33,671 nt of DNA from Mesoaciditoga sp. (GTDB lineage: Bacteria > Thermotogota > Thermotogae > Mesoaciditogales > Mesoaciditogaceae): positions 1 to 33,671 of the forward strand of contig WFYR01000078.1 of the NCBI GenBank assembly GCA_015489955.1. Direction: 5' to 3'. This document shows positions 10,117-19,679 of the stretch, in pieces. Position 1 is the first letter of the stretch. Every line of letters begins with the position of its first letter. The notes beneath the pieces were generated by a model. The model ran no database searches. It saw only the letters and a list, made by a program, of their open reading frames with translations, and had not been told where the DNA came from. The translations under genes were made by a program, and so were the position numbers.

Positions 10117-10139
10117 CTTGGAATTTGGAGGAGAAAGAA

Positions 10140-10739
10140 GTGTACATAGGTATTGAAGGTGTGATAGGTGTTGGAAAAACAACTCTGGCACGTATGATAA
10201 GCGATGAATTCGGATTTCTTCATTTTTTAGAAGTTGTAGAAGAGAACCCGTTTTTGGCCAATTTTTATCAAGATAGGGAAAGATGGGCATTTCAAACCCA
10301 GCTTTTCTTCCTTTTAAGCAGATATTCGCAACAAGATGAACTTTCAAAAATGTTAAAGGATGGAAAGAGTGCCGTATCGGATTACATCTTTGACAAAGAC
10401 AGAATATTTGCGAAGATGAATTTAAAAGGAGACCAAATGGATCTGTACGACAAAGTTTTTAACATCTTAGATTCAAAAGTTTTAAAGCCAGATTTGGTTA
10501 TTTATCTCAAAGCTTCTCTGGAAACGCTTATGAAAAGAATAGCAATGCGCGATAGAGTGTTTGAAAGAAATATGGATGAAAATTACATATCCTCGCTTAT
10601 AAAAGCATACGAAGATTTCTTCAAAAATTACAAGGGAAAATTCGTAATTATAAATGCCGATGAAATCGATTTCGTTCAAAGAAAATCGGATCTTAACTTT
10701 GTCCTGTCTAAAATAAAAAAGAGTGGTGTTGCGCTTTGA
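10140..10739 (+). CDS. deoxynucleoside kinase (dGK/dAK/dCK family)
   Basis: Start chosen at GTG 10140, six bases after GGAGGAG; the TTG at 10125 lies ahead of that site. The 199-residue enzyme carries the family features in order: P-loop IEGVIGVGKTT (about 5-15), EENPFLANFYQD, RWAFQTQLFFLLSRY and the lid-type arginines near IAMRDRVFERN. Such kinases phosphorylate deoxynucleosides to monophosphates for the salvage pathway; which base is used cannot be told. Its last codons overlap the start of a second paralogous kinase by 4 bases (TTGA), as in the dAK/dGK or Dgk/Dck pairs of Bacillus and Lactobacillus, where the two subunits form a heterodimer or act side by side. Confidence 0.88.
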   Translation: MYIGIEGVIGVGKTTLARMISDEFGFLHFLEVVEENPFLANFYQDRERWAFQTQLFFLLSRYSQQDELSKMLKDGKSAVSDYIFDKDRIFAKMNLKGDQMDLYDKVFNILDSKVLKPDLVIYLKASLETLMKRIAMRDRVFERNMDENYISSLIKAYEDFFKNYKGKFVIINADEIDFVQRKSDLNFVLSKIKKSGVAL

Positions 10740-11350
10740 TAATAGGCATCTGTGGAAACATTGGAGCTGGTAAATCAACTTTGATAGAAATCTTGAAAAA
10801 AGAAAAAGACTACACCCCAGTCTACGAGATCGTAGAAGAAAATCCATACCTTTCAGATTTTTATTCAAATATGAGAAAGTGGGCGTTCCATTCTCAACTT
10901 TTTTTTCTCATAAAAAGGTTCGATTTTTTAAAAAGGGTAAAGGAAGATGAAGGAATAACACTTGAAGACAGAACAATAGAGGAAGACGTTGAAATATTTG
11001 CAAGGAATCTTTACGAAATGGGATACATTTCTCCAAGGGATTGGGAAACTTACACATCCCTCTTTAAGACTTTTTCAGATCATTTACCACAACCACGGGG
11101 ATTTGTGTACTTAAAGGCATCACTTTCCACTTTATCCAGGCACGTTCAACGACGAGGAAGAAGTTTTGAAAACGGAATATCAAAAGAATATCTGTCCAGA
11201 TTAAATGACTTGTACGAAAGATGGACTAAAACTTTAAATGCTCCACTTCTTGAGATAAACTGTGATGAATACGATTTTGTCGAATTTCCGTCTGATCGAC
11301 AAAGAGTGGTAAAAATGGTGGAGCAATTTGTGGAAAAGACGCTTGGCTGA
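10736..11350 (+). CDS. second deoxynucleoside kinase, paralogue of the upstream kinase
   Basis: The 204-residue protein starts with TTG overlapping the upstream stop (TTGA), so it depends on coupled translation; no good ribosome-binding site is seen. It has the P-loop GICGNIGAGKST (about 4-15), the same EENPYLSDFY and KWAFHSQLFFLIKRF blocks as its neighbour, an EDRTIEEDVEIFARN segment (the DRS-like motif of the family) and a lid RRGRSFENG. Retention of both P-loops and lids suggests that both are active and may differ in base preference (purine versus pyrimidine, or A versus G). The transcript probably runs up to the tRNA-Pro region. Confidence 0.88.
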   Translation: MIIGICGNIGAGKSTLIEILKKEKDYTPVYEIVEENPYLSDFYSNMRKWAFHSQLFFLIKRFDFLKRVKEDEGITLEDRTIEEDVEIFARNLYEMGYISPRDWETYTSLFKTFSDHLPQPRGFVYLKASLSTLSRHVQRRGRSFENGISKEYLSRLNDLYERWTKTLNAPLLEINCDEYDFVEFPSDRQRVVKMVEQFVEKTLG

Positions 11351-12596: not shown

Positions 12597-14333
12597 TTAC
12601 TCACTTTCGTTCTCTTGACTTTCTTTCAAATTCCTTTCAAGAGTCGAAACGATCTTCAACGCGCTTTCACCATCATTTGGATAAGTTAATACAGCGTGTT
12701 TTACATTCACTTCGTATTTGTAATTCTTAAGCTGGGAGATTATTGAATTCGCCTTTTTGATACAATCTTCTTTCTTCATGGCATAAAAACAAATTACGAA
12801 TTCATCTTCCCCGTAACGTGCAGCTATATCGGTAAGACGAATGTTTTCACTTATAACACGCGCAATGTACTTTAAAAGCACGTCACCGTTGAATTTTCCA
12901 TATTTCTCGTTGAATTCTCTCATCTTCTTTACATCCATCATAAAAAATGATAGATGTTTATTTTCTCGCATGGCTAAAGCCTCTTCCCTAACCATAAGCT
13001 CTTCAAATTCTTGTCTTGTTGACAAACCGGTTAAAGGGTCGTATTTCATGGAATTCTTGCTTCTTTCAAGAAATTCATACATTGAAAGAAATGTGGTAAC
13101 GTGGTAAAGAAGTGTCCTTATCATCTCTTTTGTTCTCTCATTTATGGTAAACTTATCCACATTCACAACGTATTTAACAACCGTAGAATCCGTTTTTAAC
13201 TCCATACTTATCTTTGAACTGCTTGATGAATCGAAATTGAAATTGTTTACAGTTCCAAGATATATCTCCATGTCTTTGTATTTCATCCCTATTCCACTGA
13301 TAGGTTTGGAAAAATCGAGAATCCTTCTAAAAGCCATGCGAAGAGCTTCTTGCAGGCTCTTTCTTTCAGATTTCACTTCGTTGAAAAGCATTGAAAACTC
13401 GATCAAAAGTTTGTTCATTTCGACAAGCTCGGCGTTAGTTTCGCTAATGTTTTTTATGAGCTCTGAGTAGTCTTTATCGAGCTTTTCATGTTTTTCGACC
13501 AATTGATTGTACTTAAAAGAAAGCTCATCCTTGGAACCTTTCTCGTACTTTCTAAAGGTATCCAATCCTTTCAAGAAATTCTCAAAATCCAACACAGGGG
13601 CAACTTTCCTTGATATTCTGTAGTAAGATAAAGTCATTAAAGAAAGAAGAATAAGAAAAATAAGTAGCCAAATGTAAAGAGTCTTTCGTGAAACCTCAAA
13701 AAGCGTTGGCCAAAAAGATCTTTTTATTAACAAAGTGTACCCGCCTATTCCAACGGGTTCTATGAAGAAAAGCTCCCCATTTTTCAAGATAACTCCATTC
13801 TTATTAAGCCCCATGACGGATAAGAAATTCTCACATTTGAAATCACTCATGTTAACACCCAATCCAGTTTTATCCACCAGAAATGTGTTTGGAATTTTGC
13901 TTCGTTTTACACCGACTATGGCCATGGAAACGTGCGTTTTATCTGATGTTTTACATGCCAACACGATAAACGGAATTGTAGAAGGTTTAAAAAATGGAGA
14001 GACGTACTTTCCTTCCAGTGTGGCATATTTGTAAGCGTTTGAATTTCTTGAGAATGAATCGTTTACCGAGTTGTAGCCATAAAGTAGATGACCTTCTAGA
14101 TCAAACAACGCGTATCCTTTTATCGTTGTAACCGTTGCGGAGGGAAATTCAACCATCTTCGTATTTGAAAGAGTTGAAAGCACGTCTTCAAAGTACCAAA
14201 AGGTGTTTGTGGAAGATATCCTGGCTTCGTTAAGCATAAATTCATCGTATCTTCTCATGTCATTTAAAACAGAAAAAATGGCACCAACTGTTGCCACCGC
14301 CACTAATACGATAACAAGCACCTTGAATTTCAT
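12597..14333 (-). CDS. two-pass membrane GGDEF-domain protein with altered GEDEF signature
   Basis: Start taken at ATG 14333, six bases after GGAGG; it overlaps the upstream stop as ATGA. The 578-residue product has an N-terminal membrane helix (about 4-20), an extracytoplasmic domain of about 190 residues, a second helix (about 217-240), a coiled-coil linker (about 270-330), a linker domain and a C-terminal GGDEF domain (about 410-570). The signature reads R-Y-G-E-D-E-F, residues 506-512, with Glu509 replacing the second glycine of GGDEF. The upstream metal-binding region MDVKKMREFNEKYGKFNGD keeps the first Asp. An I-site RxxD (Arg499-Asp502) lies exactly five residues before the signature. 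Diguanylate cyclases make c-di-GMP; this one may be weakened or may act as a c-di-GMP receptor. It is the last gene of the kamDE operon. Confidence 0.88.
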   Translation of the reverse strand: MKFKVLVIVLVAVATVGAIFSVLNDMRRYDEFMLNEARISSTNTFWYFEDVLSTLSNTKMVEFPSATVTTIKGYALFDLEGHLLYGYNSVNDSFSRNSNAYKYATLEGKYVSPFFKPSTIPFIVLACKTSDKTHVSMAIVGVKRSKIPNTFLVDKTGLGVNMSDFKCENFLSVMGLNKNGVILKNGELFFIEPVGIGGYTLLIKRSFWPTLFEVSRKTLYIWLLIFLILLSLMTLSYYRISRKVAPVLDFENFLKGLDTFRKYEKGSKDELSFKYNQLVEKHEKLDKDYSELIKNISETNAELVEMNKLLIEFSMLFNEVKSERKSLQEALRMAFRRILDFSKPISGIGMKYKDMEIYLGTVNNFNFDSSSSSKISMELKTDSTVVKYVVNVDKFTINERTKEMIRTLLYHVTTFLSMYEFLERSKNSMKYDPLTGLSTRQEFEELMVREEALAMRENKHLSFFMMDVKKMREFNEKYGKFNGDVLLKYIARVISENIRLTDIAARYGEDEFVICFYAMKKEDCIKKANSIISQLKNYKYEVNVKHAVLTYPNDGESALKIVSTLERNLKESQENESE

Positions 14334-15367
14334 GATTTTCCTCCAAATTCCCATGCAAGCTTAAAACCAGCCGCAGTTATCCTGTAAAAGTAAATCGGAG
14401 TTGTGGCGTGAATACCGTTAAAAGTAAAGGAATTTCCCACACCAAAAAATGAATGAGAATTCAAATATTGCTTCACTTCTTTGTAACTCACTTTTTCTTT
14501 TGCCAAAACGTACGCAACTTTCAAAGCATTGTATGCTAACACGGCGGCTGGCGTGAGCACCAGATTGTCATGAGAGATTTCTTGATTTAACGTGGATTGA
14601 AGGTAAAATGGATCCACAAAAGCAATTGTTACCATACCTTTAACTACTTGAATATGTTCAAGCAATAGACTATGGAATGTCCAATCACTTCCTAAAAAAG
14701 CCGAATTCGGAAATTTCTCCTTAAGATTTTCAACAGTTTCCACTGCGTGTTCTGGCGACATGATAAGCACAAAGACATCTGGAGAATGAACGATTTTTCC
14801 CGTTTCGCTCAAAAAAATGCTCTTTGCTTTTATCCCACTTAAATCCTTAAGAATTTCACCAGCCAGATAATTCACATACACCAAATTGGTCGTATCTTTT
14901 ACTATCACAACGTCCTTAAAACCCATTTGCTTAAGATATGTGGCTATGGCTTCAGCTTGAACATCATCGGTGGGGGAAAGAGTGAAGGCAAACTTGGCCT
15001 TTTTCAGCATTGTAGGGTTTGTTACGGTCGTCTCAATTAAGATAGAATGGGCTCTTTCAAGAAACCCGTCTATTTTTTCAAGATCAGATGAATACCCATC
15101 CGAAACGAAATATTCTACGCCTTCTTCAACCGCTTTTTTCATAGCGCTAACCAAAGTCGTGGAAGTGTAGTCAACATCTATAAAATGAACATCTTTAGGC
15201 AATTTCTTCATGGCAGTTAAAAAGCCAACTCTGGCATCAAAATGTGCATCAACATCATCGGTGGGTAAAAGTATACCCACCGTTGTTCTTTCTTTGTAAG
15301 GATTGAATAGCATGAACAATATAATGAGCCCTAAAACTACGAAAATAACGATTCCCGCTCTTTTCAT
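14330..15367 (-). CDS. membrane-tethered periplasmic-binding-protein-like (type 1 fold) protein
   Basis: The 345-residue protein has an N-terminal hydrophobic segment (residues 4-22) without a clear cleavage site or lipobox, so it is probably anchored in the membrane. From residue 28 it resembles branched-chain amino-acid binding proteins (type 1 periplasmic-binding fold): TTVGILLPTDDVDAHFDARV, FVSDGYSSDLEKI, FAFTLSPTDDVQAEAIATYL, AFLGSDWTF and LTPAAVLAYNALKVAYVLAK. No permease or ATPase gene is adjacent. Both its start and its stop overlap neighbours by 4 bases (kamE upstream, GGDEF gene downstream). A sensory role delivering a ligand signal to the downstream GGDEF protein is more likely than transport; the ligand is unknown, with lysine-type compounds suggested only by context. 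Confidence 0.8.
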   Translation of the reverse strand: MKRAGIVIFVVLGLIILFMLFNPYKERTTVGILLPTDDVDAHFDARVGFLTAMKKLPKDVHFIDVDYTSTTLVSAMKKAVEEGVEYFVSDGYSSDLEKIDGFLERAHSILIETTVTNPTMLKKAKFAFTLSPTDDVQAEAIATYLKQMGFKDVVIVKDTTNLVYVNYLAGEILKDLSGIKAKSIFLSETGKIVHSPDVFVLIMSPEHAVETVENLKEKFPNSAFLGSDWTFHSLLLEHIQVVKGMVTIAFVDPFYLQSTLNQEISHDNLVLTPAAVLAYNALKVAYVLAKEKVSYKEVKQYLNSHSFFGVGNSFTFNGIHATTPIYFYRITAAGFKLAWEFGGKS

Positions 15368-16116
15368 AACACCCTCTTCGAAATTTCAACCGCTATGTAC
15401 GAAGCGACATCGGAAGGCAAAGTCCCATTTCCAAATCCAGCATCGTAGCCCAATTCAACAGCAAGTTCATGAGTTATACGAGGACCTCCTGCTATCAACA
15501 GAATGGATTTTCTCAATCCTTCCGCTTCCAGTATATCGGCCAGCTCCACCAGATTCTTCACATGTATATTTCTCTGAGTCACAACTTGAGAAACCAAGAC
15601 AACGTCCGCATTCGTTTCCCTGACTTTCTTTGCCACTTCAGCTGGCGGAACCTGGCTTCCCATATTGTAAACTTTGAACATTTTATACCTTTCAAGACCA
15701 GAATCACCATGGTAACCTTTCATATTCAAAATCGAATCAAGCCCCACCGTGTGAGCGTCCGTTCCAATCGTTGCGCCAACTACAACTATTTGCCTTTTGA
15801 CGTGCTCTTGTATGTATTTATCGACTTCTTCCATACTCATTTTTGGCGTTTCAACCTCTAAAACCTTTATTTCATTGTAATCAATTGAGGTATTTAGATG
15901 ACCGTAAACGACAAAAAAAGAAAAATTCTCCTTTAAATCCTCGGAAAATACTATTTGCACATCTGTGAGTCCCATCTTATTCGCAATTTGCCGTGCCGCC
16001 TCGCGGGCTTTAGATCCGTTTGGCACTGGTAATGTAAAAGAAAGCTGAACGGCACCATCATCCATTTGGTCTCCATACGGTTTAAGATGAGACAAATCAA
16101 CTTTTTTTACACTCAT
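15364..16116 (-). CDS. kamE: lysine 5,6-aminomutase, beta (cobalamin-binding) subunit
   Basis: The 250-residue subunit contains the B12-binding motif DAHTVG with the cobalt-ligand histidine at residue 122. A lysine exactly 11 residues later (Lys133 in ILNMKGYHGD) corresponds to the His133/Lys144 spacing of the Clostridium sticklandii enzyme, where that lysine forms the PLP Schiff base. The complex with KamD moves the terminal amino group of D-lysine (or L-beta-lysine) from C6 to C5 using adenosylcobalamin and PLP, a step of lysine fermentation. It overlaps kamD by 4 bases (GGAGG inside the kamD end) and the PBP-like gene by 4 bases. Split subunits of this size argue against ornithine 4,5-aminomutase (OraS about 120 and OraE about 730 residues). 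Confidence 0.93.
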   Translation of the reverse strand: MSVKKVDLSHLKPYGDQMDDGAVQLSFTLPVPNGSKAREAARQIANKMGLTDVQIVFSEDLKENFSFFVVYGHLNTSIDYNEIKVLEVETPKMSMEEVDKYIQEHVKRQIVVVGATIGTDAHTVGLDSILNMKGYHGDSGLERYKMFKVYNMGSQVPPAEVAKKVRETNADVVLVSQVVTQRNIHVKNLVELADILEAEGLRKSILLIAGGPRITHELAVELGYDAGFGNGTLPSDVASYIAVEISKRVL

Positions 16117-17684
16117 AACTCTTCCTCCTCAAGCTCTTCTTCCATCATCTCAAAAATGGGATTGTAATAATCTTCGCCTTTTGTGAAGACCCCGTCCGCA
16201 CCTTTTCCTTCTTCTCTTTTTCTCGCTATGTCTCCAAAAGTTCCTTCTTCTATTGCCGAAATCAAACCAATATCTTTTACGTGTTCCAAAAGCTCAACGG
16301 CGTTCGAAAGCACTTCATTAGCTCTCTTTTGAATAAAACCGTTTTCCTTGAAGATGATCTCATCGCCAATGTTTTTGGCGTTGTTGAAAACGTACTTCGC
16401 GTTCTCTATAGCCAGATATCTGTCCTGCAAAAATGGGGTGTGAATCGCTTCCGTAAGCATTCCTAAAAGTTGTATGGATTGACCTGTCATTATGGAAACA
16501 AGGTTGTACATGGTGTTCATAGCGTATCCTTTAAAGATATCACCTGTCATATGTCTCGTTGGTGGCATGTATTTTGGCGTTGCTTCTGGGAAAAGCTCTC
16601 TGGTCAACAATGCATGTGCTATTTCATAAAGGAATCCATTTTCTATGTCCGGATCTATCTCAAAAGCATGCCCAATTCCCATGTACTTTGGTTTTAAATG
16701 GCTTTTCAAAGCGAATTGTTCATTTATGAGTTGTGAAGTGGTTACCGTATGGGCCCTATCTATTGGATCGGATGTTTTGATGTAATTATCCTCACCTGTG
16801 TTAATTGTAATGTGAGAATAAGCGCATATCAGTCTTGATGTATATTGATCAACAAAGGTTCTCAACATGTTTATATTTCTAAAAAGGATTCCATACATCG
16901 AATCGTTTAAAAGGAAATCCAAACCCTCAATCGCCGCCATTGCGCTTATTTCAGGCATGCAAAGTCCCGAAGCGTAATTCGTTAAACGTATATACCTTCC
17001 AACCTCATTTGCCGCTTCATCCAGCGCTTTTCTCATTATACGGAAATTCTCCTGAGTTGCGTAAGTGCCACCGTATCCTTCTGTTGTCGGGCCGTAAGGA
17101 ACAAAATCAAGCAAAGACTGTGCCGTTGAACGTATAACAGCTATTATATCCGCCCCTTCTTTCACGGCGGCTTTAGCCTGAATAACGTCTTCGTATATGT
17201 TACCGGTGGCAACTATAACGTAAAGGTAAGGTTGAGCCGGATCACCAAGTTCTTCCAACATTTTATCTCTTTCATCTCTAACTTTTCTTAAACGTTCCAG
17301 CGCTTCCTGTGTTAGCTCCTCTATCTTTTCCGCTACCACACTCTCGTTTTGCGGTGGAAAATCCACCAACGAAAATTCTCCTCTTCCAACGCTTTCTGCA
17401 ATTTCTTGAGGAGACATGCTTTTGGCAACGCACGCGTTTACAAGCCAATACGTAATTCCTCTGTCCAAAGCCCCGGATTTTTGAACGTCGTCTACCACCA
17501 CGTTGGGAAGAGGAACTCCTTCATGATTAACACCATCTATTCCGTAAAATCTTGCAACTGTTCTTTCCACAGACGTTGTACTTCTAACATCTATGAATTT
17601 CTGAATCTCATCGGTGATTTCTCTTGCCAACTTTCTGGCTCTTTTTACCATATTTTCGTCTAAATTCAGAACGGGCTTACCCAT
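16113..17684 (-). CDS. kamD: lysine 5,6-aminomutase, alpha subunit
   Basis: The 523-residue protein matches the length of KamD (about 516-520) and opens with family-like text (NLDENMVKRARKLAREITDE, then STTSVERTVARFYGIDGVN). It contains YLYVIVATGNIYEDVIQAKA and SLLDFVPYGPTTEGYGGTYA, typical of the TIM-barrel subunit that holds the AdoCbl/PLP active site with KamE. A strong GGAGGAAGAG lies before the ATG. It begins 28 bases after hisS on the same strand, so it is probably co-transcribed with udg and hisS. The acidic tail EEELEEEEL overlaps the kamE ribosome-binding site. No kamA, kdd, kce or kal partners of the full lysine pathway are in the window. Confidence 0.93.
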   Translation of the reverse strand: MGKPVLNLDENMVKRARKLAREITDEIQKFIDVRSTTSVERTVARFYGIDGVNHEGVPLPNVVVDDVQKSGALDRGITYWLVNACVAKSMSPQEIAESVGRGEFSLVDFPPQNESVVAEKIEELTQEALERLRKVRDERDKMLEELGDPAQPYLYVIVATGNIYEDVIQAKAAVKEGADIIAVIRSTAQSLLDFVPYGPTTEGYGGTYATQENFRIMRKALDEAANEVGRYIRLTNYASGLCMPEISAMAAIEGLDFLLNDSMYGILFRNINMLRTFVDQYTSRLICAYSHITINTGEDNYIKTSDPIDRAHTVTTSQLINEQFALKSHLKPKYMGIGHAFEIDPDIENGFLYEIAHALLTRELFPEATPKYMPPTRHMTGDIFKGYAMNTMYNLVSIMTGQSIQLLGMLTEAIHTPFLQDRYLAIENAKYVFNNAKNIGDEIIFKENGFIQKRANEVLSNAVELLEHVKDIGLISAIEEGTFGDIARKREEGKGADGVFTKGEDYYNPIFEMMEEELEEEEL

Positions 17685-17712: not shown

Positions 17713-18978
17713 TCAATGCCATTGAAGGTTTGAATCGCACTTCTCTTCTTTCAACCTTCTCTTTATTTCCGAAAGCGATAATTTAACTTGTGAACCGTCG
17801 AACATATTTTTCAAAGTGTAAATCTCGCTCTTCATTTCTTCTTCTCCAACGATAATAACGTAATGAGCGCCCAATTTTGAAGCGTTTTTAAATTGAGATT
17901 TCATCTTTCTTCCCATAACATCTGTCTCAACTATGAATTCTTTTGAAAGTTCAAATGCTATGCTCAAAGCACGCGGCCTTTGTTCGTCTTCTACGGCCAC
18001 CACGTAAACCTGCGGGGAAGGTTTATCTGGCAATTTCTTTTCCCTTTCCAAAGCTATCATGACTCTTTCCATTCCCATGGCAAACCCTACGGAAGGCGTT
18101 GTTCTTCCTCCTAACTCCTCTATGAGATGATCGTACCTTCCTCCTCCGGCAAGAGCATCTTGAGCTCCAAGAGAGGTGGAAGTTATCTCAAAAACCGTCC
18201 GCGTGTAGTAATCTAAGCCCCTCACAATAGTTGGATCCACTTCGTAATCCACACCAAGCGTATCCAGAAGCTCTTTAACCCTGTTAAAGTGTTCTTTACA
18301 CTCATCACAAAGGTAATCCAATATTATTGGAGCACTCTTTGCGTATTGGGCATCTTTTTTGCAATCCAATAAGCGTAGTATATTTCTATCGTATCTTATC
18401 TGACAATCGTCGCACAACTTTGGAAGCAAAGGCTTGTAGTACTCTTTAAGTGCTTCCTTGTACTTTGGCCTGCACTTTTCGCATCCCGTAGAATTTATCT
18501 TCAGTTTAAATTCTTTCAATCCAAGAGCTTTTAAAGCTTCCACAGCCAACACGATGATTTCAACGTCCGCTTCTGGACGAGAAGAGCCTATCAACTCTGC
18601 GCCATATTGATGAAATTGTCTTAACCTGCCAGCTTGAGGCTTTTCATATCTAAACATTGGACCTATGTAAAATAATTTCTGCGGGAGACCTCGAGAATCT
18701 AAAGAATGTTCCACAAACGCCCGCATAACTGGAGCCGTTCCTTCTGGCCTTAAAGTGATGGATCTTCCACCTTTGTCTTCAAACGTGTACATTTCTTTCT
18801 GAACTATATCAGTGTCAGTTCCAACACCCCTTTTGAAGAGTTCTGTTGCTTCAAAAATAGGTGTTCTTATCTCAGAAAACCCAAATTTTTTTGAAACGCT
18901 TCTCAGTTTGTCTTCCACCCATTCCCAAACGTATGAGTCTTCAATTATATCGTTGGTTCCTTTTATTCTTCTGATCAC
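17713..18978 (-). CDS. hisS: histidyl-tRNA synthetase
   Basis: The 421-residue protein is a full-length class II HisRS. It begins MIRRIKGTNDI with class II motif 1 near TPIFEATELFKRGVG, motif 2 near FYIGPMFRYEKPQAGRLRQF, the HisRS-specific stretch VRGLDYYTRTVFEI and motif 3 near GGGRYDHLIEELGG ... PSVGFAMGMERVM. The anticodon-binding domain follows (about 325-410). It starts with GTG, five bases after AGGTG, which itself overlaps the end of the uracil-DNA glycosylase gene four bases upstream. It charges tRNA-His in the cytoplasm. Confidence 0.97.
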   Translation of the reverse strand: MIRRIKGTNDIIEDSYVWEWVEDKLRSVSKKFGFSEIRTPIFEATELFKRGVGTDTDIVQKEMYTFEDKGGRSITLRPEGTAPVMRAFVEHSLDSRGLPQKLFYIGPMFRYEKPQAGRLRQFHQYGAELIGSSRPEADVEIIVLAVEALKALGLKEFKLKINSTGCEKCRPKYKEALKEYYKPLLPKLCDDCQIRYDRNILRLLDCKKDAQYAKSAPIILDYLCDECKEHFNRVKELLDTLGVDYEVDPTIVRGLDYYTRTVFEITSTSLGAQDALAGGGRYDHLIEELGGRTTPSVGFAMGMERVMIALEREKKLPDKPSPQVYVVAVEDEQRPRALSIAFELSKEFIVETDVMGRKMKSQFKNASKLGAHYVIIVGEEEMKSEIYTLKNMFDGSQVKLSLSEIKRRLKEEKCDSNLQWH

Positions 18979-18982
18979 GTTT

Positions 18983-19585
18983 TCACCTACTTTTCATTTG
19001 CCTTGTGAAATCATCGTACATTTTCTTCAATTTTTTTATATCTTCCCATGTAAGGTACTTCGGCGAGCCCGGGGCCTTTGAAGCGTTTCTAAGCAGGTAA
19101 CTTGGATGAAACATCGGGAATACCTTTATTTCTCCCTTCCAGCTGTAAAGCTTTCCCCTTGCCGATGTAATGGATTTCACACTGTCTCCAAGAAAGAACT
19201 TCATGGCGGTTGCCCCCAATGGAACTATTACCCTGGGATTTATAACTTCTATTTGAGCCATGAGAAAAGGAGAGCACGCTTCAACTTCATCCGGCATGGG
19301 AACTCTATTCTTTGGTGGGCGGCATTTAACAACATTGGCTATGTACACTTGTTCCCTTTTAAGCCCCACCGATTCTAATATTTTATCAAAAAGTTTTCCA
19401 GCTCTTCCCACAAAAGGGCGTCCCGTTTTGTCTTCTTCTTCACCGGGGCCCTCTCCAACAAACATTACAGGAGAATAAATGTTTCCTTCACCGGGAACGA
19501 CGTTTATTCTAGTTTCTGACAACCTACACGCGTTACACTTATTTATCCTTTCAACTATCTTGCTCATTATTTCTTCTTTATTCAA
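18983..19585 (-). CDS. family 4 uracil-DNA glycosylase
   Basis: Start placed at TTG 19585, eight bases after GGAGG; a further ATG at 19606 would put that site inside the gene. The 200-residue protein has the family-4 (thermophile-type) features: an N-terminal CNACRLS with two iron-sulfur cysteines (Cys17, Cys20), two more in VVKCRPPKNR and EACSPF, the uracil-binding GEGPGEEEDKTGRPFVGRAG and the C-terminal HPSYLLRN. It removes uracil from DNA and carries a 4Fe-4S cluster. Family 4 is frequent in thermophiles, where cytosine deamination is fast, and this supports a thermophilic host. It leads the udg-hisS-kamDE run. Confidence 0.93.
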   Translation of the reverse strand: MNKEEIMSKIVERINKCNACRLSETRINVVPGEGNIYSPVMFVGEGPGEEEDKTGRPFVGRAGKLFDKILESVGLKREQVYIANVVKCRPPKNRVPMPDEVEACSPFLMAQIEVINPRVIVPLGATAMKFFLGDSVKSITSARGKLYSWKGEIKVFPMFHPSYLLRNASKAPGSPKYLTWEDIKKLKKMYDDFTRQMKSR

Positions 19586-19679
19586 AAGAAGCACCTCCAC
19601 AATCATTTATTTTAGCACAATCGCAACACCAACTCCTTGAGAGTTATCATAAAAATCTGTGTTGTCAACCAGCGATTAC

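Follow-up and report, generated by a model that had tools for sequence, protein, structure and literature searches.

Why should a catabolic enzyme be translated together with what looks like a receptor? The question is raised by a stretch of 33,671 nucleotides (the window; contig WFYR01000078.1 of the Mesoaciditoga sp. assembly GCA_015489955.1) from a 1.77 Mb Thermotogota genome (G000). Here kamD and kamE, the genes for the two subunits of lysine 5,6-aminomutase (KamDE), are followed by a gene for a type-1 periplasmic-binding-like protein (PBP) and a gene for its two-pass membrane neighbour, which carries a GGDEF domain (the GGDEF protein). This adjacency is old and conserved and did not arise by chance, and the operon probably represents a real nutrient sensor. 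We hypothesize, giving the idea about an even chance of being right, that the PBP and the GGDEF protein together make up a transmembrane sensor in two parts, which works in step with KamDE and relays its signal to a non-catalytic nucleotide-binding GGDEF domain. The genes and their junctions are listed below in the order of transcription, with the scores of udg, kamD and kamE set against their NCBIfam cut-offs.

18983..19606, minus strand: udg, family 4 uracil-DNA glycosylase, the gene that opens the co-directional run (TIGR00758, 206.6 bits against a cut-off of 125.3)
17713..18978, minus strand: hisS, histidyl-tRNA synthetase, immediately upstream of kamD (TIGR00442, 503.5 bits; order conserved)
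16113..17684, minus strand: kamD, lysine 5,6-aminomutase alpha subunit, 523 residues (NF052384, 843 bits against 600)
16113..16116, minus strand: 4-base ATGA overlap of kamD and kamE (sequence; 7 of 7 orthologous loci)
15364..16116, minus strand: kamE, lysine 5,6-aminomutase beta subunit, 250 residues (NF052385, 380 bits against 280)
15364..15367, minus strand: 4-base ATGA overlap of kamE and the PBP gene (sequence; 6 of 7 orthologous loci)
14330..15367, minus strand: PBP gene, probable membrane-anchored type-1 PBP of the LivK/ANF-receptor type, 345 residues (PF01094, 7.7e-8)
14330..14333, minus strand: 4-base ATGA overlap of the PBP and GGDEF genes (sequence, with the start taken at 14333)
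12597..14333, minus strand: GGDEF gene, predicted two-pass membrane protein, 578 residues (PF00990, 1.7e-23)

Gene order and its conservation

The locus was compared across 10 genomes (G000 to G009) from four genera of the family Mesoaciditogaceae (f1), which includes Athalassotoga saccharophila NAS-01 and Mesoaciditoga metagenome-assembled genomes (MAGs). The PBP and GGDEF genes occur together in 8 of the 10, spread over four genera. Conservation of the order kamE-PBP-GGDEF in relatives, which the sequence-only reading had named as a check on its proposal, was confirmed at seven loci in four genera; these loci (G000, G001, G003, G004, G006, G007 and G009), the ones with enough flanking sequence, all show hisS-kamD-kamE-PBP-GGDEF. 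In G008 a contig starts with the last part of the PBP gene, followed by the GGDEF gene. The other two genomes, G002 and G005, keep hisS-kamD-kamE and lack both sensor genes, and kamE is followed directly by a gene that matches a VIT1-family gene in length and position. The VIT1-family gene comes after the GGDEF gene in G007 and G009 (an assignment checked against Pfam in G007 only), and in a tree of KamDE the genomes G002 and G005 are the sisters of G007 and G009 with a support of 100. A single event that removed both genes together accounts best for the sensor-free loci, since otherwise the same junction must have received insertions twice, independently. Joint loss in turn suggests that the PBP and the GGDEF protein work as a functional pair, and that this pair is dispensable for KamDE.

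The two genomes without sensor genes beside kamDE are the evidence that could be cited for unrelated genes lying together by chance and sharing no function, and the sequence-only reading had stated that sensor-free kamDE loci in close relatives, without linkage elsewhere, would point that way. However, these loci fit a single event in which both genes were lost together in one clade, and elsewhere the same order, with near-identical overlaps, recurs at seven loci in four genera with the PBP down to 31% identity. An artefact of MAG assembly is countered by the locus in the complete isolate genome of A. saccharophila NAS-01. We therefore regard chance as highly improbable, and the association proposed from the sequence stands.

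Three queries, KamE, the PBP and the GGDEF protein, were run against 61 genomes of the class. Full-length PBP homologs at 31% identity or more were found only in the kamDE-sensor setting, and the pair was seen without kamDE beside it in one copy only, at a contig edge. A PBP match in G012 (f4), at 36% identity over part of the protein, lies behind a cinA gene and runs to the edge of its contig. A genome-wide pattern scan for the PBP returned five loci, all in Mesoaciditogaceae or in Thermotogae MAGs of this group. Within the family, identities are 31-64% for the PBP, 33-60% for the GGDEF protein and 65 to 92% for KamD and KamE. That the frames of both sensor genes have stayed open despite divergence to 31% and 33%, respectively, argues that they are maintained.

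The minus-strand run of udg, hisS, kamD, kamE, PBP and GGDEF genes spans positions 19606 down to 12597, with 4 bases between udg and hisS and 28 bases between hisS and kamD; udg lies upstream of hisS in all family loci long enough to show it. Both aminomutase subunits exceed their equivalog cut-offs, which identifies KamDE, at the level of sequence, as lysine 5,6-aminomutase. KamE contains the B12-binding motif DxHxxG (DAHTVG, residues 120-125) and an NMKGY motif with Lys133, which we take to be the lysine that holds pyridoxal phosphate. For the GGDEF gene, the first in-frame ATG (14354) was considered as a start and dropped in favour of the ATG at 14333, because GGAGG lies just upstream of the latter and its ATGA overlap with the PBP stop matches the other two junctions. 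With this start, the three 4-base overlaps reported earlier are all present in the DNA. What had been described as genes fused into one operon is a conserved translational unit of four separate genes, and the four-gene description, correct as to the order from kamD to the GGDEF gene, had omitted hisS and udg upstream. The kamE/PBP overlap is replaced by a 64-base gap in G003, and the PBP/GGDEF junction is overlapping or abutting in all orthologous loci, with GGDEF start codons that are uncertain in G003, G007 and G009.

A gene for a LacI-type regulator lies 72 bases beyond the GGDEF gene, and a scan of the operon for promoters and terminators gave no more matches than shuffled sequence did. 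Two deoxynucleoside kinase genes stand in tandem at positions 10125-11350 of the window with a 4-base overlap, and are neighbours of the unit in G003 as well.

The binding protein and its membrane partner

Structures were modelled with AlphaFold2 (AF2), and membrane topology was taken from hydropathy. The PBP has a single N-terminal hydrophobic segment (residues 4-22), and its receptor fold begins at about residue 28; inspection of the sequence found no lipobox cysteine. The protein is probably periplasmic and membrane-anchored. Its model (pLDDT 83, pTM 0.80) has a two-lobed receptor fold, for which the nearest structure is LivK of Thermotoga maritima (TM1135, 3td9; E 3.7e-16, TM-score 0.76), followed by LivJ and by gamma-aminobutyric acid (GABA) and glutamate receptors, and a profile match to the Escherichia coli leucine-specific binding protein was also obtained (2.9e-5). 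The tethered type-1 PBP of the sequence-only reading is thus upheld by the anchor segment, the PF01094 match and the modelled fold, which places it in the amino-acid-binding LivK/leucine-receptor type, unlike NspS. The residues predicted to bind an alpha-amino acid were assigned by alignment only: Ser93 and Thr116 align with Ser79 and Thr102 of the leucine-specific binding protein, and Asp228, in a GSD motif, aligns with an Asp of TM1135. All three positions are invariant in 14 aligned PBPs of two groups, and their counterparts in the leucine/isoleucine/valine-binding protein hold the amino-acid backbone. An alpha-amino acid is the likeliest class of ligand.

The GGDEF protein has two hydrophobic segments, and hydropathy and the AF2 model (pLDDT 73, pTM 0.40) together indicate a first transmembrane segment, a periplasmic domain of ~150 residues, a second transmembrane segment, a coiled coil, a GAF-like domain and a degenerate GGDEF domain. 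From the model, we infer that the periplasmic domain is CACHE-like and the cytoplasmic domain GAF-like. A domain search of the protein found no EAL or HD-GYP domain. The two-pass topology agrees with the membrane sensor partner that had been proposed; the synthesis of cyclic di-GMP (c-di-GMP) that went with it does not agree with the active site. Active cyclases carry [GAS]G[DE]E[FY], the fourth residue being the catalytic base (PMC8835794). Among the 8 aligned orthologs the motif reads GEDEF, AEDKF or GEDSF (GEDEF at residues 508-512 here): the second Gly is Glu in every one, and the fourth residue is not Glu in three (Lys in G003, Ser in G007 and G009). The alignment also showed that the C-terminal phosphate-contacting ADxALYxAK region is absent from all 8; six other GGDEF proteins of the genome show it clearly.

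An alternative reading makes the GGDEF protein a functional diguanylate cyclase that works as in the NspS-MbaA system: a lysine-pathway metabolite would bind the PBP, and the ligand-bound PBP would switch c-di-GMP synthesis. The domain is recognisably GGDEF, nearest to the T. maritima enzyme 4urs. All 8 orthologs retain the third motif residue and the Asn and Asp presumed to contact guanine, and 7 of the 8 retain the first metal Asp. The substitutions at the second and fourth motif positions and the lost C-terminal motif speak against this reading, as does the canonical GG[DE]EF kept by 10 of the 11 other GGDEF proteins of the same genome. We consider an active cyclase quite unlikely. The domain looks catalytically dead, and for the protein as a whole a role as receptor or relay is likelier than one as cyclase. 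The I-site RxTD, in contrast to the catalytic residues, is invariant in all 8 orthologs (RLTD at 499-502, with R499, T501 and D502, five residues before the motif). Since catalysis appears to be lost while the I-site is kept family-wide, a domain that binds c-di-GMP or relays a signal would be the simplest interpretation; a GTP-binding relay is a less likely alternative, because the C-terminal phosphate-contacting region appears to have been lost.

Elsewhere in the genome, at G000:C53:3510-4610, one frame joins an N-terminus recognised by eye as nucleoside-diphosphate-kinase-like with a GGDEF domain of degenerate motif (GTDEF). G001, G003, G004, G006 and G008 retain the fusion at full length; it corresponds to two genes with a 4-base overlap in G007 and to two close genes in G009.

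Distant relatives of the PBP (about 23-26% identity; profile E 2.7e-33) were found in six genomes of another Thermotogota family (f2) and in G059. Each is a membrane-anchored LivK-type protein and adjoins a two-pass HD-GYP protein, the two genes being adjacent or overlapping, and the HD-GYP partners retain the HDxGK, HHEN and GYP motifs. The f2 pair sits behind a gene of ~290 codons, which Pfam assigns to the DegV family in the single genome examined for it; lysine genes do not precede the pair. This recurrent neighbourhood, there with another output domain, independently supports a link between the PBP family and c-di-GMP proteins. The c-di-GMP connection drawn from the window therefore holds in so far as the same PBP family pairs with intact HD-GYP proteins in other Thermotogota, whereas the partner here is probably not a producer. 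Homology between the periplasmic parts of the GGDEF protein and the HD-GYP proteins was weak (probability 79.7, 16% identity) and is not claimed.

Proposed signalling and the place of lysine

In the mechanism that we propose, a two-part sensor would be translated together with lysine 5,6-aminomutase. The anchored PBP would bind a small ligand in the periplasm, most likely an alpha-amino acid, and its closure would alter how it touches the GGDEF protein's CACHE-like periplasmic domain. From there the signal would pass along the second transmembrane segment, the coiled coil and then the GAF-like domain, and would reach the GGDEF domain. This domain would have given up c-di-GMP synthesis, and may instead bind c-di-GMP at its I-site, or GTP, as a relay contacting some partner. 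Placement in the operon would let sensor dosage track KamDE, matching external amino-acid sensing to the capacity for lysine fermentation. The operon, its conservation, the hydropathy topology, the predicted receptor fold and the loss of catalytic residues beside a kept I-site come from the analysis; the steps that we infer are physical contact between the PBP and its partner, binding of an amino acid, binding of a nucleotide at the I-site and the tie to lysine. A more ambitious version seems unlikely to us. In it, a catabolic B12 enzyme would be translated with an external sensor of its own, whose anchored amino-acid receptor would act on a non-catalytic GGDEF domain that binds c-di-GMP. The membrane protein would combine two signals, lysine (or a product of it) outside and c-di-GMP inside, to control lysine fermentation, perhaps through direct contact with KamDE, and related Thermotogota would employ this receptor family to drive HD-GYP phosphodiesterases.

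Lysine fermentation by this genome is plausible from its gene content: KamA and KamB-like genes lie together (C88), and Kdd (C59), Kce (C84) and KamC-like (C31) genes are also present, kal being outside the check. The KamC-like gene belongs to the MutS family and overlaps the end of a gcvT-gcvH-gcvPA-gcvPB run at G000:C31 (L101:5610-11533); its score of 297.6 bits is just under the cut-off of 300, and G001 and G006 show equal gene lengths and order. A lysine-pathway ligand is suggested by the conserved junction with kamE and by the amino-acid type of the PBP. Several observations weigh against the proposed sensor or its tie to lysine. The remaining lysine genes are scattered, none of them adjoining the sensor genes; KamD and KamE have changed far more slowly than the PBP and the GGDEF protein; and the model of the GGDEF protein is of moderate confidence with a low pTM. 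Furthermore, hisS and udg share the operon, so that the lysine link may be incidental, G002 and G005 possess the lysine genes tested yet no sensor, and the structural relatives of the PBP are leucine-type. That the PBP binds a compound of the lysine pathway is possible, if rather doubtful.

The last three of these observations also favour an alternative in which the pair does sense an amino acid but owes its place behind kamDE to inherited architecture and is not tied functionally to lysine, its ligand being a general nutrient cue such as a branched-chain amino acid. The PBP-HD-GYP pair of f2 points in the same direction, since it follows degV and not lysine genes, though most f2 genomes with the pair carry kamDE elsewhere. 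Against inherited architecture, the kamE junction is preserved with translational overlap in four genera, and among the 61 genomes the pair is never away from kamDE, the one contig-edge copy excepted. We consider this alternative quite possible, and retain as our hypothesis a relay kept in step with KamDE. A conserved operon that ties a receptor to one enzyme provides a short, testable list of ligands, in a field where few c-di-GMP-type receptors have a known ligand.

Comparison with known systems

Searches of the open-licence literature found no paper pairing a lysine aminomutase with a diguanylate cyclase, and none containing both "Thermotogota" and "lysine fermentation". The KamDE enzyme is the same as that of known lysine fermentation clusters (kamA, kamB, kamC, kamD, kamE). 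However, in other Thermotogota kamDE stands with kamA and reactivase genes, whereas here it stands with hisS, udg and the sensor pair. The neighbours of kamDE vary by Thermotogota family: kamA and reactivase genes were seen in the f7 cluster checked, genes of similar size to those of f7 in f9 and f10, and unrelated genes in f2 and f3.

NspS is a PotD-type polyamine-binding PBP of another fold class. Its pairing with MbaA had been offered as a model for this locus, and the analogy of logic, a periplasmic binding protein with a membrane c-di-GMP protein, is retained; the class of PBP and the enzyme domains differ. The PBP here is of the ANF_receptor/LivK type, its partner has no EAL domain and a degenerate GGDEF domain, and no metabolic enzyme is described in the NspS-MbaA operon. 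MbaA of Vibrio cholerae is an active GGDEF-EAL enzyme with SGDEF and EVL domains (PMC8967002). According to a review, only one domain family of the PBP clan has been studied in c-di-GMP networks (PMC8846402).

ArtI of Salmonella, which we take to be a separate transporter-type SBP_bac_3 protein, provides a second comparison, as here too an amino-acid PBP serves a CACHE-type GGDEF protein. The dCACHE GGDEF protein STM1987 requires the arginine-binding protein ArtI for its response to L-arginine (PMC8846402). In contrast to the present pair, STM1987 is an active cyclase; here the GGDEF domain is degenerate, and the PBP is probably anchored, LivK-type and encoded with its partner. For the GGDEF domain itself, the comparison is with CC3396 (PdeA) of Caulobacter, whose identical GEDEF motif belongs to a domain that is cyclase-dead, binds GTP and regulates (PMC4823724, PMC8835794). 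In CC3396 the GTP-bound GEDEF domain activates an EAL domain, whereas the GGDEF protein has neither EAL nor HD-GYP.

LivK and LivJ (T. maritima TM1135, 3td9) share with the PBP the predicted fold and the alpha-amino-acid-binding positions; unlike them, the PBP appears to be held to the membrane by an N-terminal segment that looks uncleaved, and its gene has no neighbouring ABC transporter genes. The degV-PBP-HD-GYP operon of f2, whose genes overlap as well, sets the same PBP family beside a c-di-GMP-type protein with two membrane passes, but the partner is an intact-looking HD-GYP phosphodiesterase and kamDE is not near. One receptor family thus meets an intact HD-GYP enzyme in one lineage and an apparently dead GGDEF domain in another, which would constitute a natural experiment in signalling where the output changes and the input is kept.

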